Assembly: GCF_900111995.1 (NCBI RefSeq)
Contig: NZ_FOKF01000022.1
Span: 1 to 64,000 of the forward strand
Direction: 5' to 3'
Source of the DNA: Collimonas sp. OK607
GTDB taxonomy: Bacteria; Pseudomonadota; Gammaproteobacteria; Burkholderiales; Burkholderiaceae_D
Length of the DNA: 64,000 bases
Shown here: one piece after another, positions 23,784 to 46,163 of the stretch
Layout: each line of letters begins with the position of its first letter
Position numbering within the stretch: the first letter of the stretch is position 1
Made by a program: the position numbers and the translations under genes
Notes under the pieces: model-generated
Told to the model about the DNA's origin: nothing
Database searches by the model: none
The model's input: the letters and a program-made list of their open reading frames with translations, nothing else

Positions 23784-23902
23784 AATAGCCTGCAGGCTTG
23801 TATAGATGGTAACGCCTGGAAAATAAGGGGTGTTGCGAGGATGTAAAGCGGGCGTGAAACGAGACTAGTGCGGAGTAGTACAGAAATAGTACAAAGGATA
23901 GA

Positions 23903-23998
23903 GGCGAGCCTTGTCTGCGGCACTTGCAGGAAATGGCTGTGGCTGCTTCGTTCCCGACCTGACCAGGTTGACCACGCCACAATGCGCAGGGGCCCGCC
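23903..23998 (-). ncRNA. ffs: Signal recognition particle RNA (4.5S RNA, small bacterial type)
   Basis: On the minus strand the apical domain reads ACCTGGTCAGGTCGGGAACG followed by AAGCAGCCACAGC. It carries the GGAA-type tetraloop region (here GGGAAC) and the AGCAGCC internal loop that binds Ffh M domain and FtsY. The ends pair: GGCGGGCC at the 5' end (23991-23998) with GGCTCGCC at the 3' end (23903-23910), allowing one G-U. This gives a hairpin of about 96 nt, the small SRP RNA of Gram-negative bacteria. Exact ends are uncertain by a few bases. Confidence 0.9.
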
Positions 23999-33004: not shown

Positions 33005-33798
33005 GATTAAGCAAAAGTACCATTAACAAAAAAATAACTACTTGGCGGAAGATGATATTGTAAGCCACCTTGAGCCATAAGACTTCGCCGGCTGCACACC
33101 TGGATTCACCCAGGCTCACCCAGATACACCTAATCCTGACTAAATCATGGCAATTACCTGTTGCGTGTTGCGACCGGCAGCACACGACCCAAAGCCGCCT
33201 GTCACGGTTCGCGGGTTCAACGGCAGAAATGCAGCGGTTGCGGTCGCTGGCTTTCCATGACGCGGTACCCGATGCTGAAGGTATTGGCCTTCCTCAGACG
33301 CAATTCTGAGCGGCGGCTCCACTTCACATAGCGGTCGCTTGCCGATTCAAACGACAAATACTTTGGAGTTACTTTTTTTGAATGGCCAGTTCTATACTTT
33401 GGAACGTTTCCCAAGAGGAGATGGCCAACGTTTGACATGAGCGGACGTATTCAAGTGCCTTCGAGGCACCCACAAGGTAAGCTATCAAGTTCCGACTTAC
33501 TACATTGCGACGTTGCACATGATAGTCAATGACCGTTGAGACTCCGGGCGTCCCAACGAATGCAGCTATCGCAGTGAGAATGCTACCGAACAAAGGGAGA
33601 CCGTTCAATGAAGGCGTGCGAAACTGGCATCGTCTGCTATGACGTTCAAACAGCGGTCGACGCGAAGCATTAGAATAAATTCAAGAAAACCTAGACCGGC
33701 TTTTCTCCGTTCTAGGTTACAGGCCCATTCGTTATGAAGCCCCCTGATGCATACTCTTGATGACCATCAGGCAGCGGCTTCTTGACCGGGGAAACATC
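33005..33798. other. Left junction of the accessory island
   Basis: 794 bp with no intact gene. At 33147 an ATG begins MAIT, the usual first residues of a betaproteobacterial RadC, then diverges. Degenerate repeat copy A follows (33184-33395). A minus-strand 79-codon reading frame at 33369-33608 (MNGLPLFGSILTAIAAFVG at its start) is unrecognised and lacks a ribosome site; it may be debris. A hairpin GAAGCC-CCTGATG / CATCAGG-GGCTTC at about 33738-33785 is the likely porin terminator. Confidence 0.5.
33184..33395. repeat. Degenerate long repeat, copy A (left flank of island)
   Basis: Bases 33186-33310 resemble copy C (44334-44460) and bases 33229-33395 resemble copy B (44150-44316) in the same orientation. 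Shared exact runs include AACGGCAGAAATG (A and C), GCAATTCTGAGCGGC and ATTCAAACGACAAATACTTT (A and B). Confidence 0.75.
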
Positions 33799-34959
33799 TT
33801 AGAAATCGTACTTGATACCAACAGTAATCGCACGCGGATTATGGGCCAGCGTGCCGGGACTGCCGGCATTCCTGGCGCCGCCAATGTCGTATGCAGAGTT
33901 GCTACCGTTGCGCAATTGTGCAACTTGCGACCACAGGTCAACTCGCTTCGACAGTGCATAGCGATAACCCAAGACGAACAAATTAGCCTGTGTACCGTCG
34001 CCGACATAGATCCCGGAAAAGACCGGAGTCTGATTTCCCTGGCCTTTACCTGCATGGTACCAACCCAGTTCAACTCTACCGGGACCGAAATAAACGCGCC
34101 CGACCAGGCCAAAGCCGTTTTGTTTCAGATTGCTCCGACCTGGATTGTCGTACTGCAATGTTTGGTAGTAAGCGCCGATGTAGGCCTGCGGGTTAATGTT
34201 GTAACCGGCGGCCAGCATCACGATGTGATCGTTGAGACCTTGGCCGCGAAGATTGTGATGAAGGTTATAAGCCAGTGCAATATTCACGTCGTTTTGCTGA
34301 TATTGCAGCTTGGTCGACCATGCAAACGGATTGCAGCCGGCGACTTCGCCCAGAGACAAATGCGTTGCGACATTCACGCCATTGATTGAGGGTGAGTCAT
34401 AGCGAATCGAATTACCGTAGCGGTTATCGAATGCAAAACTATTTGTATTGCCGGCATTGCCCGCAACTTGCTTGCAGCCGTCGCTCCCAGGGTTGCTACT
34501 GGTACTGCCGGTAAACGTATTGCCGTAGCCGTTTGCCCAAAAGCCATTCAAATTATCATTGGTCACATTGGTCTGATAACCGGGACCTGCTATCGCATGC
34601 AGATCGTCCAGCGCGTTTAACATATAACCGAACCGCACTTTACCAAAATCACCTTGCAGCCCGACGGTGGTCTCGCGGCTCCCCAATGCCCCGGCGCCGG
34701 TGTCCGGGCTAAAACCGGTTTCGATAACGAAGATGGCGCGCAGGCCGTTACCCAGATATTCCTGCCCTCTAAACCCCAAACGACTCGCCAAGTTGTTTTG
34801 CTGGGTAACCGTCCCACGACCGTCCCCATAACCCGCGTAGTTAACCATCCCGACATTGAGGCGGCCATACACTGCGACATTGCTTTCTTCCTGCGCATAT
34901 CCCGCACCGCTCACCGCGGCGAGCGCGATCACTAATAAAAGCGTCTTTTTCTTGATCAT
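33799..34959 (-). CDS. Gram-negative general porin (Burkholderia OmpC-like)
   Basis: 386 residues. Signal peptide about 1-22 (MIKKKTLLLVIALAAVSGAGYAQ, cleaved after AYA-like GYA). The mature start SNVAVYGRLNVGMVNYAG and the end RAITVGIKYDF, with terminal Phe, are diagnostic of trimeric 16-strand porins of the Porin_4 family. It should let the substrate of the adjacent ABC transporter cross the outer membrane. It lies 236 bp downstream of the ATPase gene on the same strand, so it probably belongs to the sugar operon. Such a dedicated porin in a sugar cassette is a mark of specialised uptake. Confidence 0.92.
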   Translation of the reverse strand: MIKKKTLLLVIALAAVSGAGYAQEESNVAVYGRLNVGMVNYAGYGDGRGTVTQQNNLASRLGFRGQEYLGNGLRAIFVIETGFSPDTGAGALGSRETTVGLQGDFGKVRFGYMLNALDDLHAIAGPGYQTNVTNDNLNGFWANGYGNTFTGSTSSNPGSDGCKQVAGNAGNTNSFAFDNRYGNSIRYDSPSINGVNVATHLSLGEVAGCNPFAWSTKLQYQQNDVNIALAYNLHHNLRGQGLNDHIVMLAAGYNINPQAYIGAYYQTLQYDNPGRSNLKQNGFGLVGRVYFGPGRVELGWYHAGKGQGNQTPVFSGIYVGDGTQANLFVLGYRYALSKRVDLWSQVAQLRNGSNSAYDIGGARNAGSPGTLAHNPRAITVGIKYDF

Positions 34960-35195
34960 TTCATCTCCCTGCCTATAGTCAGATATAGTTCAACATCCCT
35001 CAGAAAATTCCGAGGATTTCTTCGGCGGACATCTTAAAGACGCCCCCCACCCATGAACCGCTCTCCGGCGGCTAAACCACGTGTTTATCCGCTCGCGTGA
35101 GTCATCTCCGCGAGTGATTGCACACCTGCAACACGTTTTATTTACGTCGCAATATGGACGAGAAAAAACTTAGTATCTGTTACGGACTTGTTACC

Positions 35196-36332
35196 TCAGG
35201 TCGGCAATTCAACCGTCCTGGTACAGGCCAATCCGGCGCTGTCGAACAAGTGCAACTGATCTGGCAACAGACGCAGAGACAGGCTTGTTCCCTGCACCGG
35301 TCGCACACTGCCTTCAACGCGAACAGTAAACATCGATGGGCCGCCAGGCAGATTCACATACAACAGTGACGCATCCCCCAGTCGCTCCACATGCTCAAGG
35401 GCTACCTGTATGGATGCGGGTGCGCCCTCCTCACCAAGCACAATGTGCTCCGGACGAATCCCCAACTTCACTGACGCGCCGGCCGCCAGATGGCGTGCGT
35501 CGACGGCAGCATTCAAGCGATGGCCGGCGACCTCCACTACCGCGTGACTGTGCTCGGCGCTGATCAATTTTGCCGACAAGATATTCATTTTTGGAGAGCC
35601 GATGAACTCGGCAACGAACAGACTGGCCGGACGGTGGTAAAGCATCATCGGCGAACCGGTCTGTGCTACGCTGCCTCGCTCCTGGATTAAGTCGCCGGTA
35701 TGAAGCAGAACGATCTTGTCGGCCAACGTCATCGCCTCTACCTGATCGTGCGTAACGTAGATCATGCTCGCGGAACCAAGCTCGCGATGAAGTTTGGCAA
35801 TTTCCAAGCGGGTCTGAACGCGCAAAGCGGCATCGAGATTGGAGAGCGGCTCATCGAACAAGAACACCTTGGGCTCCTTCACGATGGCACGACCGATCGC
35901 CACACGCTGCCGCTGTCCGCCTGACAGTTCCTTGGGCAGCCTGTTCATCAGCGGACCCAGCTGCAGGATGTCGGCGGCGGCCTTGACCTTGCGGTCGATC
36001 GCGGTCCGGTCAGCGCCGAGAATTCTCAATCCGAAAGCCATATTTTCCGCTACCGTCATGTGCGGATAAAGCGCATAAGACTGGAACACCATCGCCACAC
36101 CGCGCTTGGAGGGCGGTAGCTTATTGACGGTCGTGCCGCCGATGATTAACTCGCCCTCGCTGATTTCCTCAAGTCCGGCAACCATGCGCAACAGCGTAGA
36201 TTTTCCGCACCCCGACGGGCCCACGAAAACACAAAACTCGCCATGCTCGACGGTCAGTTCCGCCTTATTGATCGTCAACGGAAGTGCCGGTCCGTAGCGT
36301 TTTGACACTTCCTTGAATTCAATACGTGACAT
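35196..36332 (-). CDS. Sugar ABC transporter ATPase, MalK/UgpC type
   Basis: 378 residues starting at the second of two adjacent ATGs (36332), which is 6 nt from GGAG; the first is only 3 nt away. Walker [17 protein letters not shown] (about 38-53), Q-loop [12 protein letters not shown], signature [16 protein letters not shown], Walker [13 protein letters not shown], His switch [13 protein letters not shown]. The C-terminal TOBE/MalK regulatory domain (about 240-378) contains [12 protein letters not shown]. Energises uptake through the two permeases upstream. The spacing to the permease gene is 54 bp. Confidence 0.93.
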
Positions 36333-36389
36333 CATGTACTCCTTGAATATTTGGCGATTTGAGCGCTCATGTGATTGGATTGGCGCTCT

Positions 36390-37226
36390 TCAGCCTTTGA
36401 CCGCTCCGGCGGTCAGACCGGAAACGATTTTTCTTTGAAAAAACATCACCATCAGGATCAGCGGCAACGTGACCACCACTGAAGCTGCCATGATCGCCCC
36501 CCACGGTATTTCAAATGGGCTGGAACCTGAGATCAGGGAGATACCGACAGGAACAGTCCGCTCTGAATCCTTGACCACAAATGTCAATGCGAACAGGAAC
36601 TCGTTCCATGCATGCATAAAAGCGAGTAGCGTGGTCGACACCAGGGCGGGCCACAGCAGCGGCATAAAGACATTCCAGATAATGCGCAATGGCCCACATC
36701 CATCCATAATCGCGGCTTCCTCGAGTTCGTGCGGCAAATCGCGCATGAACGTGGTGAGTACCCAAACCGTGAACGGCAAGGTGAATATCATGTATGGCAC
36801 CGCTAATCCAATCGCCTTGTTATAGAGACCCATGGCGCGAATGAGTTCGAACATGCCCGACAACACAGCCACTTGCGGAAACATCGATACGCTCAAGATG
36901 GCTATCAACAGCAAGCCCTTGCCCTTGAACCGTATCCGGCCAAGTGCGTAGGAGGCAGTCACCGCAAGAACGAGCGAAATCACCACCACGGTTGTGGCCA
37001 CCATCAATGAATTTAGCATCTGCCGACCGAATGGCTGCGCACTTTGGAATAGGCCGATATAGTTGTGCAGCGTTGCTTGCCGCGGCCAGAGATGCGGGTC
37101 AAACAGCGCCGATCCTGTCTTAAGCGAGGTCGATATCGCGTAAAGGAACGGGTACACTGCAACAATGGTGACCAATGCCGCCAGCAGATACAGCATGACG
37201 CTGCCTAAAGTAGATCGCTTGTTCAT
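36390..37226 (-). CDS. Sugar ABC transporter permease, MalG type
   Basis: 278 residues, six TM segments, CUT1 family inner-membrane subunit. Conserved EAA loop ELEEAAIMDGCGPLRIIWNVFMP (about 185-207), which docks to the ATPase, and the usual end FFQRKIVSGLTAGAVKG. Starts inside the upstream permease gene (4-bp overlap), so the two are translationally coupled. Confidence 0.93.
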   Translation of the reverse strand: MNKRSTLGSVMLYLLAALVTIVAVYPFLYAISTSLKTGSALFDPHLWPRQATLHNYIGLFQSAQPFGRQMLNSLMVATTVVVISLVLAVTASYALGRIRFKGKGLLLIAILSVSMFPQVAVLSGMFELIRAMGLYNKAIGLAVPYMIFTLPFTVWVLTTFMRDLPHELEEAAIMDGCGPLRIIWNVFMPLLWPALVSTTLLAFMHAWNEFLFALTFVVKDSERTVPVGISLISGSSPFEIPWGAIMAASVVVTLPLILMVMFFQRKIVSGLTAGAVKG

Positions 37227-38137
37227 GCTGCAGCCCCCGAAACGCGAACCCGTGCGAGCCGCATGTAAATGATGGTAGCGGCGCCGATGATGAGAAAAAG
37301 TGCCGTCGACGCTGCAGAGCCGAGTCCGATATTGCCGTTATCGATCATTTCGCGGCGTACAAAGCCGGACATGCTAATCGTGCTGCCGCTATTTGAAGTC
37401 AGAATGTAGATGAGATCGAATACCCGCAGCGCGTCCAAGAGGCGGAAAATAACCGCGACCATCAACGCCGGTTTGATCAATGGCAAAGTAATTTTCCAGA
37501 AAACCCGTAACGGGTGGACGCCATCCACCCGAGCCGCCTCGTAACAGTCCTTCGGCAAGGTCTGCAGCGCCGCCAGGATAAGCAAGGCCATGAACGGCGT
37601 GGTCTTCCAGGCGTCAACCAGTACCACGGTCCACAAGGCGTACTGCGCTTCGGCCGTCCAGGCAATCTTGTGCGCTATCAATCCGGTTGACATCAACATA
37701 TCGTTGATGACGCCAAACTGATCGTTCAGCATCCATCCCCACATCTTCGCCGAAACAACCGTGGGAATTGCCCAAGGCACGAGTACGGCTGTGCGTACGA
37801 ACATACGGCCTTTGAAATTAGCGTCCAGTAATAAGGCAACGCCCAACCCTGCCATCGTTTCAAGCCCCACGGAGGCGATAGCAAACTGAAGTGTGTTTAC
37901 AATCGCCATACCCCAATCGCTCTTCCAGAAACCGTCCGTGTAGTTGGGGTTCGCAAACAAACCGAATTCACCGAAGTAGTTCTCGAAGCCGACAAAGCGG
38001 GCATGAGAAAGATCGTTGATATTAGCGTCTGTGAAACTGAACCATATCGATCGGCCGAGCGGCCACACTGCGACCGCCACCAACACGATCAGCATGGGCG
38101 CAAGAAAGATCCAGGCTGTACGAGTCCTGTTATTCAT
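37223..38137 (-). CDS. Sugar ABC transporter permease, MalF type
   Basis: 304 residues with six TM segments, CUT1 family. N-terminus TRTAWIFLAPMLIVLVAVAVWPL. EAA loop DCYEAARVDGVHPLRVFWKITLPL at about 195-218. Partner of the downstream MalG-type permease. 46 bp downstream of the binding-protein gene. Confidence 0.93.
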   Translation of the reverse strand: MNNRTRTAWIFLAPMLIVLVAVAVWPLGRSIWFSFTDANINDLSHARFVGFENYFGEFGLFANPNYTDGFWKSDWGMAIVNTLQFAIASVGLETMAGLGVALLLDANFKGRMFVRTAVLVPWAIPTVVSAKMWGWMLNDQFGVINDMLMSTGLIAHKIAWTAEAQYALWTVVLVDAWKTTPFMALLILAALQTLPKDCYEAARVDGVHPLRVFWKITLPLIKPALMVAVIFRLLDALRVFDLIYILTSNSGSTISMSGFVRREMIDNGNIGLGSAASTALFLIIGAATIIYMRLARVRVSGAAA

Positions 38138-38183
38138 AAAAAAATCCTTTGGGGAAAATGGTTAAGTCCGATTCGCCTTGAAC

Positions 38184-39455
38184 TCACCACTTATTGCGCT
38201 TAATCTGATTGAGCTTGGCCTCGGCCTTTTTCAGGCTCTCTTCGGCACTGACCTTTTTAGACAACACGTCATGGGCGGCGATCCAAACCGTATTGCTGAC
38301 TTCCGGGTACTTCATTGCCGTCACTGTCGACGGCCGCGCTCCGCCGTCCATCAGCGCTGCGTAGATATTAGCCATGAAAGGATTTGATGCCAGCACGTCC
38401 TTGTCCTTAAAGAGTTCTGGTCGAGTCGGGATGTACGAGCCCCTCACTGCGCGATCTTTCTCGACTTCTGCGCTAGTCATGTACATGACCAGATCGGCCG
38501 ACGCAGCGATGTTCCTGGAGTATTTCGACACAGCCAACTCCCGCCCACCCAATGTCGAGGCGGTTTTGCTTGCATCGCTGCCTTTTGGCAGCAGCGCCAA
38601 TCCGACTTTGCCCTTGACAGGGCTGTCAGCCGCCTCCACAAGCTTCAGCGCATAACCCCAATTGCGCATAAAGAGCGCCTTACCGTTTTGAAACACGCCG
38701 CGTGCGTCTTCTTCACCGTAGTTCAGCACACCTGTCGGAGCAATGGTGCCGATCCAGGAAGCGGCGGTGTTCAGTGCTTTAATCCCCCCGGGATTATTGA
38801 TGGTGATCTTGCCGGTGTTATCGACAAAGGTACCGCCGCCAAAGCTCAGGAACCACTCGAGCGTGTTGCACGTCAATCCTTCATACGCCTTGGCTTGAAA
38901 CACGAATCCCTGAAAATCGGCATTGCCCGCCCCTCGCTCGGCAGCTTGAATCTTTTTTGCAGTTGCGGCGAAGTCATCCCAGGTCTTGGGAACATTCAGC
39001 TTGTATTTTTCGAGCAAATCCTTGCGGTAGTAAAGCAAGGCTGCATCGGCGTACCATGGCATGCCGAGCAGCCGCCCATCCACGGTGTTATTGGTAATAA
39101 TCGAAGGGAAATGCTGAAGCTCCGCGCCTTTCGCATAAGGCTTCAAGTCAACAAGGTGGTCCTTTAAGGTTCCTGGAGACGTGACATCGATCATCATGAC
39201 GTCGATATCGGCACTTTGCGCTGCAAACATCTGACGGTACAGCGCCAATGTGTCAGTGGTGGTGATAGGCGCGGAGAAAACATTGATAGTGTTGCCCGTC
39301 TTCTTCGCCCAGGCATCAGCGTGTCGTTTGCAAAATTCGAAGTTTGGTCCGCTAGTCGGTCCACAGGCAATGGTAATAGTGGCAGCGCTTGCGCCCGTCA
39401 CACAGATGGCGGCAAGAAATAAAGCGGCAGCGAAGCCGGATATATGGCGGAACAT
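38184..39455 (-). CDS. Sugar ABC transporter periplasmic binding protein (CUT1)
   Basis: 423 residues. Signal peptide about 1-24 ending ASA (AALFLAAICVTGASA). Family 1 solute-binding fold: DVMMIDVTSPGTLKDHLVDL (about 84-103), GLLGMPWYADAALLYYRKDLL-like core (about 130-150) and KTWDDFAATAKKIQ. It resembles binding proteins for trehalose, maltose or other alpha-glucosides (ThuE/AglE kind). The first residues after the signal, TITIACGPTSGPNFEFC with a later Cys in CNTLEWFLS, are not of the lipoprotein type. First gene of the minus-strand operon, with an operator and a strong promoter about 170 bp upstream. Confidence 0.92.
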   Translation of the reverse strand: MFRHISGFAAALFLAAICVTGASAATITIACGPTSGPNFEFCKRHADAWAKKTGNTINVFSAPITTTDTLALYRQMFAAQSADIDVMMIDVTSPGTLKDHLVDLKPYAKGAELQHFPSIITNNTVDGRLLGMPWYADAALLYYRKDLLEKYKLNVPKTWDDFAATAKKIQAAERGAGNADFQGFVFQAKAYEGLTCNTLEWFLSFGGGTFVDNTGKITINNPGGIKALNTAASWIGTIAPTGVLNYGEEDARGVFQNGKALFMRNWGYALKLVEAADSPVKGKVGLALLPKGSDASKTASTLGGRELAVSKYSRNIAASADLVMYMTSAEVEKDRAVRGSYIPTRPELFKDKDVLASNPFMANIYAALMDGGARPSTVTAMKYPEVSNTVWIAAHDVLSKKVSAEESLKKAEAKLNQIKRNKW

Positions 39456-39617
39456 TAGGTGTCTCCTCGTTTAGAAGGTCATTTTGTATGCAATCTCGAA
39501 GAACGGCCCAATCAGCTTGCAATAGCATGCACATTGCCGACGTTCGAGCTTGCTTACGACTCACATGCTTAGGCGCGGCCGCTGTCGCAGCCATTACCTT
39601 CATGTTTTATTTAAAAT

Positions 39618-39631
39618 TTAAAGCGCTTGCG
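39618..39631. promoter_or_regulatory. LacI-family operator O1
   Basis: TTAAAGCGCTTGCG around the palindromic core AAGCGCTT (39621-39628), the typical CG-centred LacI/GalR half-site pair. The flank TTTAAAGCGCTTGC is shared with O4 read on the other strand. Confidence 0.75.
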
Positions 39632-39633
39632 TA

Positions 39634-39662
39634 AGTATAGGTAGGCTATTTTGCACTGTCAA
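39634..39662 (-). promoter_or_regulatory. Strong promoter of the sugar ABC/porin operon
   Basis: On the minus strand TTGACA (39657-39662, perfect) and TATACT (39634-39639, 5/6) are separated by 17 bp. The operator core AAGCGCTT at 39621-39628 overlaps the start point, so a bound LacI-family protein would block the polymerase. Confidence 0.75.
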
Positions 39663-39782
39663 GCGGCGGCGTAAAACTAATTTTATTAAGCCAGTCATGA
39701 CATGCTGAGAGTTTTAGAAGGCTGAAAGACAACAAAAACATCTGGCTTTGCCTATCGATTCGACCACGATCCTTAACATATT

Positions 39783-39796
39783 TTGAAGCGCTTGCG
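39783..39796. promoter_or_regulatory. LacI-family operator O2, before the regulator gene
   Basis: TTGAAGCGCTTGCG around AAGCGCTT (39786-39793), 72 bp before the regulator start. Suggests autoregulation. Confidence 0.7.
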
Positions 39797-39867
39797 TCTA
39801 CGCCGACTTTCCTCTAACCTGACATCCAAGGCTGACAAGGATCAGCAAGACCACCTAACCAACCACA

Positions 39868-40911
39868 ATGACGAAAAATCGCATGGATCTGAAGATGTTC
39901 GCAGAACGTCTTGGCATTTCCCAATCTACTGTGAGCCGCGCACTTGCCGGACACGAGCAAATTAGCGCAAAAACGCGGCAACGGGTTGCGGAAGCAGCCG
40001 CGGAATTGGGTTATCGCCCTAACCAGGCGGCCAGACGGCTCGCCACCGGCCGCGCCAATGCCATCGGCCTCGTATTTCCTCTTGCGCGACTCTTGATGGC
40101 TCAAACCAACTTCGTTGACGTTCTCGCAGGCATAACCGGAGCACTGAAGCAACGCGACTTCGACCTGGTATTGGCGCCATTTGACGAGGATGACGAAGAA
40201 TCAATCCTGCGCCGACTTGCCGCCACGCGCTCGGTCGACGGCATCATCGTCACCCGAGCGCGCGTGCACGACTATCGCGTTCCGCTCCTCCACTCATTGG
40301 GCCTTCCCTTCATTTTGCACGGACGAACGGAAACCGACACCCCCTACTCGTTCGTCGACATTGACAACGAGGCTATATTCATGAAACCGGCAAATCTGCT
40401 GCTGAACCTAGGACACAAACGCATAGCGACATTAAATGGATTGCCTGAGTTCATGTACTCAGCCACAAGACGCCGAGGATTTCATCGCGCCTGCGAAGCC
40501 CGGGGGATATTGCCCGACCCCGCGCTGCAGCATGAAACATCAATGACTGAAGAGTCCGGATATGCACTTACGATGCAAATGCTTGCCTCACCCTCCCCCC
40601 CGACCGCTATCATCTGCGGCGCGCTCTTTCTGGCGCAGGGCGTCTATCGCGCCCTTAAAGAACATGCGCTTCAGCCTGGCCGCGATATTTCCGTGATCGC
40701 CCACGACGACCAGCTTCGCGGCATTCACGCAAACTCGTTCGAACCGTCACTGACAACGACGGCGGCGTCAGTACGGCTGTCTGGGGAGCACTTGGGAGAA
40801 TTTATCGTGGACCAAATCTTGCACCCCGAAAAAAATATTCAGCCAAAACAGGACATCGCGCCTGTCGACCTCGTTGTAAGAGATTCCATCGGGCCGCCGC
40901 CCGGGCGGTAA
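39868..40911 (+). CDS. LacI-family transcriptional regulator of the sugar cassette
   Basis: 347 residues. N-terminal LacI helix-turn-helix: MDLKMFAERLGISQSTVSRALAG (about 6-28) and the hinge helix NQAARRLATGRANAIGLVFP (about 52-70). The effector domain (about 65-340) is of the periplasmic-binding fold. It lies between the uptake operon and the lyase-glucokinase genes, and four AAGCGCTT operators surround it. It therefore most likely represses both and is released by the transported sugar or a product. The recognised sugar cannot be read from sequence; the overall look is of AglR/ThuR-like regulators. Confidence 0.93.
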   Translation: MTKNRMDLKMFAERLGISQSTVSRALAGHEQISAKTRQRVAEAAAELGYRPNQAARRLATGRANAIGLVFPLARLLMAQTNFVDVLAGITGALKQRDFDLVLAPFDEDDEESILRRLAATRSVDGIIVTRARVHDYRVPLLHSLGLPFILHGRTETDTPYSFVDIDNEAIFMKPANLLLNLGHKRIATLNGLPEFMYSATRRRGFHRACEARGILPDPALQHETSMTEESGYALTMQMLASPSPPTAIICGALFLAQGVYRALKEHALQPGRDISVIAHDDQLRGIHANSFEPSLTTTAASVRLSGEHLGEFIVDQILHPEKNIQPKQDIAPVDLVVRDSIGPPPGR

Positions 40912-41022
40912 TCCCCTCCTGAAGCCGAAGTCCCGTCCTTCGGCTCACATTGCCAGCAGACGTCAATGCTTACAAGTCATGTCACTGGCACATCTCAAAA
41001 TGGCGTTAAAACACCGACAAAA

Positions 41023-41036
41023 TACAAGCGCTTTAA
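41023..41036. promoter_or_regulatory. LacI-family operator O3
   Basis: TACAAGCGCTTTAA with core AAGCGCTT at 41026-41033, upstream of the promoter of the lyase gene; probably an auxiliary operator. Confidence 0.65.
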
Positions 41037-41121
41037 TTACTCCTCCGTACAACCATGTATTTCCGATATCAATCTTCATTGCAAATAGATAAAAACTGAA
41101 TAAATACGAGAATTTGATGTC

Positions 41122-41150
41122 TTGACATCGCAATCCCATCTTAGTATTCT
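41122..41150 (+). promoter_or_regulatory. Strong promoter of the lyase-glucokinase operon
   Basis: TTGACA (41122-41127, perfect) and TATTCT (41145-41150, 4/6) with a 17-bp spacer. Operator O4 begins 3 bp after the -10 box, covering the start point. Confidence 0.7.
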
Positions 41151-41152
41151 TA

Positions 41153-41166
41153 TGCAAGCGCTTTAA
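41153..41166. promoter_or_regulatory. LacI-family operator O4
   Basis: TGCAAGCGCTTTAA with core AAGCGCTT at 41156-41163. On the other strand it shares an extended run (AATTTAAAGCGCTTGC) with O1, which places the two divergent operons under one repressor. Confidence 0.75.
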
Positions 41167-41259
41167 ATTAAAATAAAAAAATACTGCGCAATGATGTATT
41201 TATCCAAGCTGCCGAAGACTTAAAATCAACCGCGTCGGCGGCATTAGAGAAAATTAACC

Positions 41260-42630
41260 ATGATAAATCCAAGATTTACCGACTCCAGAGTCCCCAATGC
41301 CGGCATTCGGACGCTTTTCGACATTGAGAATCGCTGGCAAGCGTGGCTCGATGTAGAGGCAGCTCTGGCACAGTCTCAAGCCGGGTTCGGCATCATCCCG
41401 GCCGCGGCGTCCGATGCTATCAGCACCGCAGCACAACTCAATCAACTGGATTTGGCGCGTATTCGCGTCGGGATCGCAGAGATGAGCCATCCCCTGATGC
41501 CATTGATCGTCGAACTGAGCCGAGTCGTCGGAGAAGCATACGGCGGCTATGTACACTGGGGCGCGACAACGCAAAACATTACCCAGACCGGCGATATTCT
41601 GGTGTTGCAGCGGGTGCACAGCGCTTTGCTTAAGCAGATGTCGCGATTGCTCGTGGTCCTGGCAGATCTCGCTGAGCGCGGGGCGGACATGGTCATTGCA
41701 GGAAGAACCCATGGCCAGCACGCCGTCCCTGCGACGTTCGGATTCAAGGTGGCCGTATGGATTGACGAGCTGGCCCGCCACGCCACCCGCATGACCCAAT
41801 TGGAGCCTCGGCTATTCGTCGCGATTATCGGCGGCGCAGCGGGCACCTTCGCGGCACTTGGCGATCGCGCGCCCCAACTCCAGGCCGACATTGCGCAGCG
41901 GCTCGGCCTTGCTCCAATGGCGATACCTGCGCGCAGTATCGGCGACCACTTCGCAGAATATGTGTGCACGCTAGGCCTTGCAGCAGCGACATGCGGAAAA
42001 ATCGGCCGCGAGATCTACACGCTGATGAAAACCGAATTTGGCGAAGTTGAAGAACCGGTACCTGCAGGGACCGTTGGCAGCTCCACGATGCCGCAAAAAC
42101 GCAACCCGCAGCTGTGCCAGGACATTATCAACATATCGACCGAGATCCGCTCACTCGTCCCTCTCGCGCTGGAAGCGGCGCAATGCGAACACGAAGCCGA
42201 TGGCACCGGCGCATTGATGCACGACGCAGTGACCAGAGCTTCCATTCTGACGGGCGACATGCTGGAGCGAATAATCCTCGTGACATCCGGCCTCCGGCTC
42301 TATCCGGAGAGAATGAAAGCGAATCTCTCACTTTCCGGCGGCCTCATCGCGGCTGAGGCGGTCATGCTGGAGCTTGGCGCAGCAATAGGCAGGCAGCACG
42401 CGCATGACGTCGTCTACGTTGCGGCACAAGCCGTGGCTACTCAAGGCGGCTCTTTTGCGGATCGGCTTATCGCAGATGATCGTGTCAATGCGCACCTTAG
42501 CGCAGATGTCATCCATGCGCTGCTGGAGCCTAGTCGTCACACTGGCTTATCGTCTGACTTGGCGCGGCGCGGGGCAATCGCGGCACGACATGCGGCGGCG
42601 GACCTCGAAGCGCGCAGGAAAGTTGCATGA
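41260..42630 (+). CDS. Fumarase/aspartase-superfamily lyase (adenylosuccinate lyase-like)
   Basis: 456 residues. Superfamily signatures: VHWGATTQNITQTGD (about 97-111, C1 region), AGRTHGQHAVPATFGFKVA (about 147-165, catalytic THGQ-His), and the flexible-loop signature GSSTMPQKRNPQL (about 273-285, catalytic Ser). A C-terminal ADSL_C-like part follows (about 360-445). Members release fumarate, or a close analogue, from aspartyl/succinyl compounds by breaking C-N or C-O bonds; one branch (CMLE, PcaB) is a cycloisomerase. This one is not the housekeeping PurB by context: it sits in a LacI-controlled sugar cassette and is co-directional with a glucokinase. I infer a sugar conjugate as the substrate, with product fumarate or an analogue. 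Class certain, substrate unknown. Confidence 0.85.
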   Translation: MINPRFTDSRVPNAGIRTLFDIENRWQAWLDVEAALAQSQAGFGIIPAAASDAISTAAQLNQLDLARIRVGIAEMSHPLMPLIVELSRVVGEAYGGYVHWGATTQNITQTGDILVLQRVHSALLKQMSRLLVVLADLAERGADMVIAGRTHGQHAVPATFGFKVAVWIDELARHATRMTQLEPRLFVAIIGGAAGTFAALGDRAPQLQADIAQRLGLAPMAIPARSIGDHFAEYVCTLGLAAATCGKIGREIYTLMKTEFGEVEEPVPAGTVGSSTMPQKRNPQLCQDIINISTEIRSLVPLALEAAQCEHEADGTGALMHDAVTRASILTGDMLERIILVTSGLRLYPERMKANLSLSGGLIAAEAVMLELGAAIGRQHAHDVVYVAAQAVATQGGSFADRLIADDRVNAHLSADVIHALLEPSRHTGLSSDLARRGAIAARHAAADLEARRKVA

Positions 42631-42687
42631 TTTGAGAAAAACACGTGCGTTTAAAAACTTGTCTGTGCTCACCCGAAAGCCACCTGC

Positions 42688-43692
42688 ATGTCTTCCACTA
42701 CAACCGTTCATTTCCACGACTTGAACCCCGCGGCATATCCCGATGGCCCCCGCCTCCTGGGTGATGTCGGCGGCACAAATGCTCGCTTTGCCCTGGAGTA
42801 CGCTCCGGGACGAATCGACGCCATTCGGGTACTGCAATGCGCCGACCACGCCGAATTTTCTGATGCGGTCGAAGCATATTTGTCGCAATGCCAGAATCCC
42901 TCAGTGCGACATGCGGCAATCGCCATCGCCAATCCAGTGCGAGGCGATGAAGTGAAAATGACCAACCATAGGTGGAGCTTCTCTATCGACGCCACGCGCC
43001 GGCGTTTAAGTCTGGAAACACTGCTGGTAGTCAACGACTTCGCTGCGCTGGCAATGTCTCTGCCGCATCTGGAGCCTACCCATTGCGTGCAGATCGGTGA
43101 CGGCAAGGCAGTAACGGGCAGCGCAATAGGATTAGTCGGCGCTGGCACCGGACTTGGCGTCGGCGGCCTGATTCCCACAGACGGGCGCTGGCTGGCGCTG
43201 AATAGCGAAGGAGGCCATGTTTCGTTTTCACCCGCCGATGAACGCGAAGTGGCCGTCCTGCAGTATTGCTGGCGCAGTTATTCCCACGTTTCGGCTGAAC
43301 GACTAATCTCCGGCCCAGGCATCGAATTGATTTACCAGGCATTAGCATCACACCGCGGCCATTACAGCAATGCATCGCTGGCAACACCCGAAATCGTCAA
43401 TCGTGCATTGGCCGGTACAGATACTCTTTGCCAGGAGGTAATTGAGTGTTTTTGTGGGATGCTTGGAACGATCGCCGCAAATCTCGCTGTCACTTTGGGT
43501 GCGCTGGGCGGCATCTATATCGGCGGCGGCGTGGTGCCTCGTCTGGGCGAATATTTCACTCAATCACCGTTTCGTTCCCGCTTCGAGAGCAAAGGCCGGT
43601 TCAGCGAATATCTCGCGCAGATTCCGACCTACGTCATCACCGCGCAATATCCGGCATTTGTCGGCGTGGCCGCAATTTTGTCCGAACATTGA
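42688..43692 (+). CDS. glk: Glucokinase, Glk family
   Basis: 334 residues of the proteobacterial Glk type (not ROK). Phosphate-1 motif [13 protein letters not shown] (about 25-37), catalytic Asp in [15 protein letters not shown] (about 113-127), [13 protein letters not shown] (about 151-163), glucose-contact Glu in [12 protein letters not shown], and phosphate-2/adenosine region [19 protein letters not shown]. Phosphorylates glucose at O6 with ATP. 57 bp after the lyase gene on the same strand, so the glucose (or a glucose derivative) probably comes from what the lyase and transporter deliver. Chromosomal paralogues may exist elsewhere. Confidence 0.92.
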
Positions 43693-44475
43693 TCCCGCCT
43701 GTCATCTTTGCCCTATTCTCTATCAATTCAAATAATTCTAAGAGATTTAAAGCTCTTCCAGACTGGGCATGTGCAAATTCTTATTCTGTCGCCTTGAACT
43801 GATCTGTGAGAAAACTGCACCTATCATGATAGCTGCGCCGTGTTGGCTAGCATCAAACTTTGCAGGACTGACCCCAGCGTCTAGATAGCGGGATAGTTGG
43901 CAAGATCGCTTATCTTTTGCGTTGTTTTCATTAGCAGAATTCAAAGTCGTTAGCTGCCCGCCAGCTTTGGCAAACCAGCCGCTGGTTGAGAAATTTCCGG
44001 CAACGGCCGGTCTACCTACCTAAGCCGCCGTTCGTTCCAATGTCGCCAAAGAACGCATTTTGCATAGAGCTGTTTGGCATTCCATCGAATGCCCAGTGGC
44101 CGCACCCAGTCTGAAACGGCCAGTGAAGCCTGATTCATTGAAGTCTGCAATGCAGCGGTTGCGGACATTGATTTTCCATAACGCTGTTACTAGTGTCGAC
44201 GGTATTGGCCGTCCTCAGGTGCAATTCTGAGCGGCTGCTCCACTTCGCATAGCCGTCGTTCCGCGATTCAAACGACAAATACTTTGGCGTTACTTTCTTG
44301 AATGGTCGGTTTCTAAATTTGAGAGACCGGACCCGACCCCGAGCAGCCTGTCACGGCTCGCGGGTCCAACGGCAGAAATGCCGCGGTTGCGGTCATTGGC
44401 ATTCTATGTCACGGTTATTGATGTCGACGATTTTGGACTTTCTCAGATGTAGTTCTCTGAAAGAATAGAAGCGGA
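43693..44475. repeat. Non-coding right flank of the island with repeat copies B and C
   Basis: 783 bp. Bases 43693-44149 hold no gene I can support; a 65-codon minus-strand frame at 43747-43944 has no recognisable content. Copy B of the long repeat lies at 44150-44316 and copy C at 44334-44460, in tandem and in the same orientation as copy A at 33184-33395. The B/C junction is GAGAGACCGGACCCGACC. Confidence 0.65.
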
Positions 44476-44586
44476 TCACATCGTTTCTTCCATTAGGTAA
44501 AGTCGGGCGCCGACCTGCAGGCGAAAGCGCCCCTCAGCCGAATCAAGATCAAGTCCGACCAACTCCGATATGCGCCCAAGTCGGTA
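44476..44586 (-). pseudogene. C-terminal remnant of a PucR/CdaR-family regulator
   Basis: On the minus strand a frame ending at TGA 44476-44478 reads RYRLGRISELVGLDLDSAEG and then RFRLQVGARL. This is the highly characteristic last helix-turn-helix segment of PucR/CdaR regulators (family form: RNTLRYRLxRIxELxGLDLxDPExRFxLxLALRL). Only this end is present; upstream it runs directly into IS1182 transposase sequence at about 44585. So an IS-associated event deleted the rest of the gene. Confidence 0.6.
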
Positions 44587-44938
44587 ACGTATCTTTACGA
44601 AAGCTGGCGATCGTCTTGAAGTCAGGTTTCAGGTGACCCGTTAGCCACATCAGTTCCACATTGCGTTGCGCTTCCCGCTCAAGACGCCGGCTCGATTGAA
44701 TGCGATTGAGGTAACCGTAAATATAGATTTTAAGAAGTACAGAGGGGTGATACGCAGGCCGTCCGGTTTCTGCTGGATTGACGCCATCAAATCCCATCTG
44801 ATCCAGATCCAGTTCATCAACGAAGACGTCGACTACCCGCACTGGGTTGCTTTCTGTAACGTAGTCGTCCAGCTGCTCTGGAAGCAATATGCCTTGCGTC
44901 CGGTCCCTGCCTTCGATGAAACGTCCCATATTGATCAC
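44586..44938 (-). mobile_element. IS1182-family transposase, N-terminal fragment
   Basis: About 117 residues starting INMGRFIEGRDRTQGILLPE and including NPVRVVDVFVDELDLDQMGF, GRPAYHPSVLLKIYIYGYLN and RIQSSRRLEREAQRNVELMW, the N-terminal DUF772 domain of IS1182 transposases. Similarity ends after KTIASFRKD at about 44591, where the frame runs on into other sequence until 44549. The DDE catalytic domain is absent, so it cannot transpose. A related C-terminal piece lies at the window start, but that is another locus. Confidence 0.85.
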
Positions 44939-45938
44939 CCGAGATATGACGAGATATCGCTATGACACGACAGAGCCTATTTCGTTTACTCGGGGAACAA
45001 GAAAATTACGTTATATTTGAAGCCAGTTGCGGCTTGGATCTGTTTTTACACAGTCTGGGCCGCAAGCAGACTCTCAAGATTCATAAGTCAGGCAGGTGTC
45101 CACACTCTTTTAATGCGTCGCTGACTTCGCTTTTCAGGCCAAGCTGCCAACCGTCGCACAACTGATTCATCCATGTTGCGGAAAGAATTGCAACGCATGC
45201 ACTCCAAATCTTCCCAAAAATCGATAACAGATTGAATCATTTGCTCCAGTACGACTTCATAAAGTGTAACGTTTTCGAAAGATGGATATTGGGGGGCGTC
45301 ATGTGGCACAGTAATTTGAAACGGCCCAGCCTGAAACGATTCGCCTGGTGCAAACCAGCCAAACCACAACGTAGGCGCTAGCTCAAACACGCGTTTATCC
45401 TTTCGCTTTACGCTTCCCATTAAAAGAGGTGGCGCCGGTTGGCTTTGTGCTGTTCGCCAATATTTCGTTTCCACCAAATATTCGATCTCCCGGTCTACCC
45501 AATTTCTATCGCCACGCTCCGTTTGCTGACGAACTGGGAGGCTTCTTCAAGGAGGCGCACAAGACGACGACTGCTAAGTTACGAATTCGGAAAAAAGTAG
45601 ATAAATTAGTAGGCTAGAATTTTGATTCCAGCATCAGGCTCGCTCCCACTTAAATATCTCCGGGAAAAGGTCGGAAAGGCCCCTTTCATGCGACCCGCCG
45701 ATTCGTGCCGCATTTTTTGCGGTGTGCGCTACACGTAGCGTTCTCAGAAAAGATGAACTGTTCATTTTTAAGAATCAAGGGCTTGTGACCTACTCTCTCG
45801 AGATTACCCCCTGCATATGGACACGCTGCACCAAGAATTGTCCATAATAAATAAATATTAATGGACAACATGTTTCAATCTAAGTAATTGATTATGTTCA
45901 CTAATACGATGTCCATTTTTGTAAAACTTGTCAGTCCA
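44939..45938. other. Right junction of the island
   Basis: 1000 bp between the IS fragment and the radC remnant. It holds one orphan reading frame (45088-45477, minus). Bases 45618-45938 show nothing I recognise: AT-rich sequence running into the radC fragment. Confidence 0.4.
45088..45477 (-). CDS. Hypothetical protein, possibly a truncated remnant
   Basis: 129 codons beginning at a TTG/GTG pair (LVETKYWRTAQSQ). The sequence has normal protein character: many Trp/Phe, LAPTLWFGWFAPGESFQAG, and a Cys pair in DLECMRCNSFRN. The frame is open a further 16 codons upstream (QQTERGDRNWVDREIEYLV) to a TGA, with no ATG and no ribosome site. That suggests the 5' part is missing or replaced. I recognise no family. 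Its position among island debris fits a remnant. Confidence 0.35.
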   Translation of the reverse strand: MVETKYWRTAQSQPAPPLLMGSVKRKDKRVFELAPTLWFGWFAPGESFQAGPFQITVPHDAPQYPSFENVTLYEVVLEQMIQSVIDFWEDLECMRCNSFRNMDESVVRRLAAWPEKRSQRRIKRVWTPA

Positions 45939-46163
45939 GTCATCTATCCGCGCGAAGTGGTCAAAGCGGCATTGGCGCACAATGCCGCCAGCGTCATGCT
46001 GGCGCATAATCACCCTTCGGGGACACTGGAGCCAAGCGCCGCGGATCGTAAATTAACCAACACTTTGAAGCAGGCGCTGGAGCTGATCGACGTCAGGGTG
46101 CTTGATCATTTCATCGTTGCGGGAACGCAAGTGCACTCGTTTGCGGAGCACGGCCAGCTGTAA
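45939..46163 (+). pseudogene. radC: radC, 3' fragment (JAB/MPN domain end)
   Basis: The reading frame from 45939 ([18 protein letters not shown]) through [20 protein letters not shown] to [10 protein letters not shown] is the C-terminal 75 residues of RadC, with the JAMM metal motif HNHPSG...D intact. The preceding 17 codons ([17 protein letters not shown]) do not match RadC, and the helix-hairpin-helix half and the first part of the MPN domain are missing. A full RadC has about 220 residues. It keeps its usual place upstream of rpmB. The likely 5' stub (ATG GCA ATT ACC, MAIT) is at 33147, so the island probably replaced about 140 codons. Confidence 0.8.

Follow-up and report, generated by a model that had tools for sequence, protein, structure and literature searches.

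The window analyzed here, i.e., the whole stretch of 64,000 nucleotides (nt) at positions 1 to 64,000 of contig NZ_FOKF01000022.1 from Collimonas sp. OK607 (assembly GCF_900111995.1), harbors a cassette of eight genes in which a CUT1-type sugar importer is accompanied by a LacI-family regulator, a lyase of the fumarase/aspartase superfamily, and a glucokinase (Glk). According to the list of open reading frames (ORFs) and to Pfam and NCBIfam profile searches of the window, every ORF of the cassette is uninterrupted. Leftward from position 39455, the minus strand codes for the importer, namely the binding protein (38184-39455; SBP_bac_1), which is of the Thermus alpha-glycoside/ThuE kind and carries S93, L270, and R305 in place of tryptophan residues, the MalF-type (37223-38137; PF00528) and MalG-type (36390-37226; PF00528) permeases, whose genes overlap by 4 nt, the MalK/UgpC-type ATPase (35196-36335; PF00005, OB_MalK, and TOBE_2; 441.1 bits in NF008653 against a cut-off of 432), and an outer-membrane porin (33799-34959; PF13609, 141 bits). 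Rightward, the plus strand codes for the LacI-family regulator (39868-40911), which combines the helix-turn-helix domain PF00356 with the periplasmic-type effector domain PF13377, for the lyase (41260-42630; Lyase_1 and ADSL_C, with the loop GSSTMPQKRNP), and, co-directionally after a gap of 57 nt, for the glucokinase (42688-43692), the genome's second PF02685 copy (374 bits in Pfam), which exceeds the cut-offs of NF001416 and of TIGR00749 (335.4 bits against 225.45). A preliminary description made from the letters alone had named all these components correctly, although it spoke of a seven-gene set, and it had rightly observed that no glycosidase, phosphorylase, or isomerase is found within the cassette.

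The two transcriptional units appear to respond to the same regulator. Two intergenic stretches (39456-39867 and 40912-41259) contain four AAGCGCTT cores, against a mean of 0.04 cores in dinucleotide shuffles of both stretches, none of which (0 of 2000) reaches four. The bare core is not rare in the whole window, where five occurrences face 2.06 expected and 5 of 100 shuffles reach five, so that the evidence for operators lies in their clustering and matched position. Specifically, a 38-nt inverted (mirror) pair (82%) links the putative LacI operator at the importer promoter (39602-39639, minus strand; core 39621-39628) with the putative operator at the lyase-glk promoter (41145-41182, plus strand; core 41156-41163). 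On both sides, the core begins 5 nt past the -10 element of the best promoter-like site, which is TTGACA-17-TATACT on the minus strand for the importer (hexamers 39662-39634) and TTGACA-17-TATTCT on the plus strand for the lyase (hexamers 41122-41150). These sites are the best consensus matches in 39450-43900, a region whose four matches, against 3.4 expected in shuffles, would be weak if taken alone. A second core upstream of lacI (39786-39793) and a third one (41026-41033) are recorded without a strand. The regulator would bind these putative palindromic AAGCGCTT sites and, given the matching operator in the same position at both promoters, the lyase is probably co-controlled with the importer. 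LacI homologues accompany similar importers in other genomes as well, with 41% identity in a Rhizobium locus (L195) and 35-38% in two further loci (L187, L104).

The fold and the GSSxMPxKxNP loop place the lyase in the fumarase/aspartase superfamily, whose members are expected to perform elimination chemistry, and its AlphaFold model (predicted local distance difference test, pLDDT, of 89.7) has the expected fold. The genome contains six Lyase_1 matches, i.e., FumC, AspA, ArgH, PurB, a PcaB-type protein, and the window lyase, and the latter remains under the cut-off of all 18 NCBIfam models that it matches. As a PurB, it reaches 275.9 bits in TIGR00928 against a cut-off of 326.2, and a PurB that exceeds the cut-offs of both PurB models (764.3 and 438.7 bits) is encoded on contig C56; the objection foreseen in the preliminary description, that the lyase might be the sole PurB of the genome, therefore falls. 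As a PcaB, it reaches 239.5 bits in TIGR02426 against a cut-off of 355.75 and has N-Q-A at the diagnostic positions; a PcaB-type copy is present on contig C74, barely above the same cut-off (356.5 bits), with neighbors that by eye resemble pcaH, pcaG, and pcaC. Two other identities were rejected, namely XcbD, the 3-sulfopropionylcysteine synthase (NF052536, 370.1 bits against a cut-off of 600), and Tad1, whose "HER" arginine is absent from the window lyase.

The lyase alignment (115 rows) shows HWGATTQNITQTG and EHEAD in the window lyase and its closest rows, against TTQDxxDT or TSQDxxDT, plus HER, in the PcaB-, Tad1-, and 3c8t-like rows. At positions 106, 109, and 313, D-D-R is present in 38 rows (one of them a duplicate) and N106 in 74 rows, the window's included; the latter comprise 71 rows with N-Q followed by A, G, or S, one with N-E-A, and two with N-Q and a gap, and Arg313 occurs in none of them. 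The lyase tree (108 rows, with support from the Shimodaira-Hasegawa-like approximate likelihood ratio test only) splits at the same place as the residues and separates 38 rows from 69 (support 84 and 85); the second group falls short of 74 because five N rows were left out of the tree. His154 does not distinguish the groups, since the genome's PcaB-type protein and the printed Tad1 row lack it, whereas many other D-D-R rows retain it. The missing arginine aligns with R360 of Tad1, a protein solved as R360A with trans-aconitate, and a clade devoid of it would not be expected to hold a tricarboxylate of the PcaB/Tad1 type in the same way. The window lyase keeps 133 of the 141 near-invariant residues of its clade and is sister to 12 mainly alphaproteobacterial rows (support 93); it has a long end branch and belongs to no set with support of at least 95, and the tree programme warns of long branches. 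The closest lyases (60-66% identity) are found in ten alphaproteobacterial loci (L037-L046), while within the order, lyases with 61-63% identity occur in two genomes of the 399 searched, and within the family (195 genomes), the best other match is 41% identical. In view of the residues, the profile scores, and the separate copies in the genome, the window lyase is neither a PurB nor a PcaB. The clade to which it belongs has no name and differs in its active-site residues (N106, Q109, and A313 in the window); it is found in Pseudomonadota, Rokubacteria, and Actinomycetota and is fitted by no curated model here.

The binding protein is a member of the alpha-glycoside (ThuE) group by both sequence and fold. 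Its nearest relative is the Thermus alpha-glycoside-binding protein (398-402 bits over the chains, template-modelling (TM) score of 0.85-0.87, 47% identity), followed by T. maritima MalE3, T. litoralis TMBP, and the sulfoquinovosyl-binding SmoF. A specificity for plain trehalose or maltose, which the preliminary description had regarded as adverse to its own proposal, would agree with the family of the protein, although three positions of its pocket region differ. Ser93 replaces a tryptophan present in 25 of 25 homologues, Leu270 a position occupied by W in 24 and Y in one, and Arg305 a ligand-site position occupied by W in 22, H in two, and Q in one; moreover, A188 stands where all 25 homologues have G. 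The residue of the Thermus protein aligned with R305 is Trp287, whose variants W287A and W287F have been solved with trehalose, and an arginine in that place would suit an anionic ligand. D90, D137, E192, R374, and Y383 are kept, two of them corresponding to sites of the Thermus mutated series (Asp118 to D137 and Arg356 to R374), while Arg49 corresponds to the variable position T69.

Homologues of the binding protein were detected in 6 of 195 genomes of the family (E<=1e-100) and in 14 of 399 of the order (E<=1e-125), the own genome being included in both counts. Among the 19 related importer loci retrieved from the two samples (L104-L108 and L175-L188), 15 have a GH13 (glycoside hydrolase family 13) alpha-glucosidase, counted at a minimum of 53% identity to that of L105 with this query locus included, and four (L106, L107, L108, and L183) have no close GH13. 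Glk homologues are present in two of the 19 (L182 and L107). The lyase is found in none of these 19 loci, nor above 100 bits in any of five plasmid importer loci, and homologous cassettes without it, an outcome that the preliminary description had named as contrary to its view, are thus the rule in these samples. The plasmid loci include one with an annotated alpha-glucosidase (L194), the Rhizobium locus with an annotated ThuA (L195), and a Burkholderia locus with an ORF that is ThuA-like by eye (L192), whereas the sugar-cleaving partner of the remaining two (L191 and L193) was left unassigned.

In the genome of Collimonas sp. OK607, family searches that were positive in control genomes gave no match to GH13, GH31, GH37, or GH65, and did not extend to GH4, GH32, GH63, GH97, beta-glucosidases, or ThuAB. 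The other Glk is part of a 661-residue frame on contig C67, which we take to be the known Glk-HexR fusion, beside a zwf-like gene (by eye) and a second MalK/MalG/MalF-like set. The cassette Glk is therefore an extra copy, and that the importer represents the basic glucose system of the genome was judged unlikely in view of this other set.

Taken together, the joint regulation, the changed pocket, and the lack of the hydrolase suggest that the imported ligand is processed by the lyase rather than by a glycosidase, with Glk taking the glucose; we put this forward as a tentative reading whose chances fall somewhat short of even. In this scheme, a LacI-controlled catabolic module, placed where the relatives have the start of radC, would take up a glucoside-like ligand through the porin and the ThuE/alpha-glycoside-type CUT1 importer. 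The second half of the ligand would not be a plain sugar and would probably be anionic. The lyase, probably under joint control with the importer, would break it in the cytoplasm by beta-elimination, as in the fumarase superfamily, into fumarate or a relative and the sugar part, and the cassette Glk would trap the freed glucose as glucose-6-phosphate. The scheme builds on the genes, the shared operator, the aligned pocket residues, the lack of a GH13 partner, and the separation of the lyase from PurB and PcaB, all read in the sequence; from these we infer the binding of LacI, the action of the lyase on the imported ligand, the bond cut, and the products. Judged by the fold, the likeliest chemistry would be an elimination that starts from a malate ether or an aspartyl amine; an O-linked succinyl ester would not suit it. 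A bolder version, to which we give only an outside chance, is that the lyase works from the dicarboxylate side and breaks a glycosidic or N-glycosyl bond by beta-elimination, so that an imported alpha-glucosyl- or glucosaminyl-malate would yield fumarate and the free sugar; in that case, the N106/Q109/A313 clade would represent a new family of lyases and the window copy would be adapted to a sugar leaving group. A real compound with the glucosaminyl-malate shape is the GlcN-malate of bacillithiol. Neither such a pathway nor a "glucosyl malate" was found described in the titles and abstract openings covered by a literature search.

As for its genomic setting, the cassette separates fkpB from a radC remnant, i.e., an ORF at 45888-46163 (plus strand) that contains a C-terminal piece of radC with 73 matching residues. 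In the genus, the order is fkpB-radC-rpmB: the 73-residue stretch has a full match in 12 of 14 other genomes and a partial one in the remaining two, and rpmB is present in 11 of the 14 loci, whose flanks span about 1.5 kb. Direct repeats flank the cassette on the left (33182-33399, plus strand) and on the right (44103-44456, plus strand; two overlapping families, 60-79% identity), and an ORF read by eye as a fragment resembling an insertion sequence (IS) or transposase lies by the right end (44549-44938). The guanine-cytosine content of the cassette is about that of the rest of the window, except for a low stretch near 44-46 kb (0.49). In our reading, the cassette is an acquired island. Elsewhere in the window, the small RNA of the bacterial signal recognition particle (23900-23998) is the sole Rfam match above the gathering score.

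The loci of related lyases show how varied the settings of the clade are. Some of them have CUT1 genes next to the lyase, which speaks for the scheme proposed above. In two Antribacter loci (L079 and L080), a binding protein, MalF, MalG, and the lyase follow one another on one strand, with Pfam support for all three importer parts in the former and for the binding protein in the latter; three Rokubacteria loci (L052, L053, and L078) have a CUT1 set at 76-726 nt from the lyase match, and in two more (L049 and L058) the distance is several kb. These adjacencies are given without a random expectation, and the Rokubacteria loci are not independent. On a Geminicoccaceae plasmid (L173, 7721-12650), a LacI gene is divergent from a 56% identical lyase, which is followed by two enolase-superfamily genes of the sugar-acid-dehydratase-like kind. 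An HpcH/HpaI aldolase occurs after the lyase or within several kb of it in L038 and, at 86-89% identity, in L037, L041, L042, and L043, and an Amidohydro_2 protein is found near the lyase in Rokubacteria; both associations are local, and neither the clustering of neighbors nor the probes revealed a neighbor conserved over the whole clade. Other settings include amidohydrolases, a peptide-type binding protein, a TctC receptor, an MmgE/PrpD protein, and an Asp/Glu-racemase-type protein. An iminodisuccinate route that would pair the lyase with an MmgE/PrpD epimerase, suggested by locus L151, was discarded, the protein of that locus scoring 108.4 bits as methylcitrate dehydratase and 101.5 bits as cis-aconitate decarboxylase against 62.8 bits as iminodisuccinate epimerase. 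A Promicromonospora locus (L066) has an intradiol dioxygenase and an FAD hydroxylase (Pfam), a loosely placed aromatic setting, and at L110 (4007-9005) a 39% identical D-D-R lyase lies beside a DctA-like dicarboxylate carrier and a two-component system, perhaps a locus for C4 or C6 acids.

Several observations weigh against the processing of the imported ligand by the lyase. The active site of the enzyme is that of its whole clade, and most of the examined clade loci have no sugar importer nearby. Specifically, in the comparison set of 59 lyase loci (L037-L095, many of which end early at contig ends), the window's Glk or LacI is found in none (tblastn at 1e-10), and MalF/MalG homologues lie in the fetched flanks of just 11, including one locus (L095) with a D-D-R lyase, so that the substrate of the clade need not contain a sugar. 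In the order sample, the lyase (E<=1e-90) is present in 18 of 399 genomes, the own one included, which is also the sole genome shared with the importer; in the family sample, the lyase and the importer searches both list another genome of the genus (G186), whose lyase, however, has D-D-R and sits on another contig, and whose importer locus (L105) carries the GH13 and, by eye, a trehalase-like gene. The full combination is thus found in one genome only, and the location at radC and the nearby IS-like remnant fit a cassette in flux. The binding protein shares 96 near-invariant positions with the first 18 homologues and deviates at 12 others, and the presence of the three tryptophans among the deviations could reflect relaxed constraint. 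Lastly, the genome has one GH15 gene on contig C88 (L190, 6170-10221), between ORFs that by eye are otsB- and otsA-like, so that trehalose might be hydrolyzed elsewhere in the genome. The interpretation given in the preliminary description, a glucose conjugate of a C4 dicarboxylate split by the lyase, is supported in part. Its alternative, in which the lyase acts on a nucleotide or aromatic acid and merely shares the regulator, may hold as well, as the matching operator and promoter layout speaks for no more than a probable joint control of the two units.

The GH15 gene feeds directly into the explanation that the importer brings in an ordinary alpha-glucoside (trehalose, maltose, or sucrose) or glucose. 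Glucose for Glk would then be released by an unlinked enzyme, be it the GH15 or a ThuAB that the genome may encode, and the lyase, sharing the regulator, would act on an acid aglycone or on a dicarboxylate that occurs alongside. The nearest solved relatives of the binding protein, alpha-glycoside-binding proteins with trehalose, maltose, or glucose, the annotated ThuA of the Rhizobium relative, and the ORF that by eye is ThuA-like in the Burkholderia relative speak in favor of this explanation; we nevertheless consider it rather unlikely, given that the three pocket-region tryptophans are changed and that GH13, GH37, GH31, and GH65 were not found in the genome. The diversity of the clade's settings, from amidohydrolases and a peptide-type binding protein to TctC, MmgE/PrpD, and Asp/Glu-racemase contexts around one conserved active site, suggests instead that the lyase cleaves the C-N or C-O bond of a succinyl compound without a sugar, such as an N-substituted aspartate or an alkyl-malate, perhaps as other members of the clade do, and that it was captured with its own substrate under LacI, the importer having drifted to that substrate. 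This would leave the paired Glk without a role and is at odds with the several sugar-site residues kept by the binding protein, and we hold it to be unlikely. Finally, the cassette might be a decaying or chimeric island that lost its GH13 and was joined by the lyase by chance, devoid of a coherent function. Its position in place of radC, the direct repeats and IS-like fragment, and a combination seen in no other sampled genome fit this view, whereas the eight uninterrupted ORFs, the matched operator layout at both units, and the intact catalytic loop of the lyase make it quite improbable.

If the proposed lyase-dependent processing is true, acidic conjugates could supply glucose to sugar catabolism without a glycosidase, and a lyase clade that no curated model fits here would gain a function; even if it is partly true, the parallel loss of GH13 and of three otherwise near-invariant tryptophans offers a direct route to the ligand. 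Among the known enzymes, the nearest solved structures are the trans-aconitate decarboxylase Tad1, the 3c8t "fumarate lyase", and the 3-carboxy-muconate cycloisomerase PcaB of P. putida (TM about 0.81-0.87, 31-33% identity), which share the ADSL_C domain and the GSSTMPQK loop with the window lyase but have D, D, and R where it has N106, Q109, and A313 and scores below the curated cut-offs. The adenylosuccinate lyase PurB has the same domain layout and fold, although the window score lies below the PurB cut-off, while FumC is 22% identical in an alignment that does not include AspA and ArgH, and FumC, AspA, and ArgH all have separate copies in the genome. As regards uptake, the cassette resembles the ThuEFGK and Thermus-type importers in its binding protein (about 44-60% identical) and MalF/MalG/MalK set, and, as in some of them, in the presence of LacI and of a Glk nearby. 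Those systems have GH13 or ThuAB, whereas the window cassette has neither, has lost the tryptophans at positions 93, 270, and 305, and carries the lyase in a second operon.

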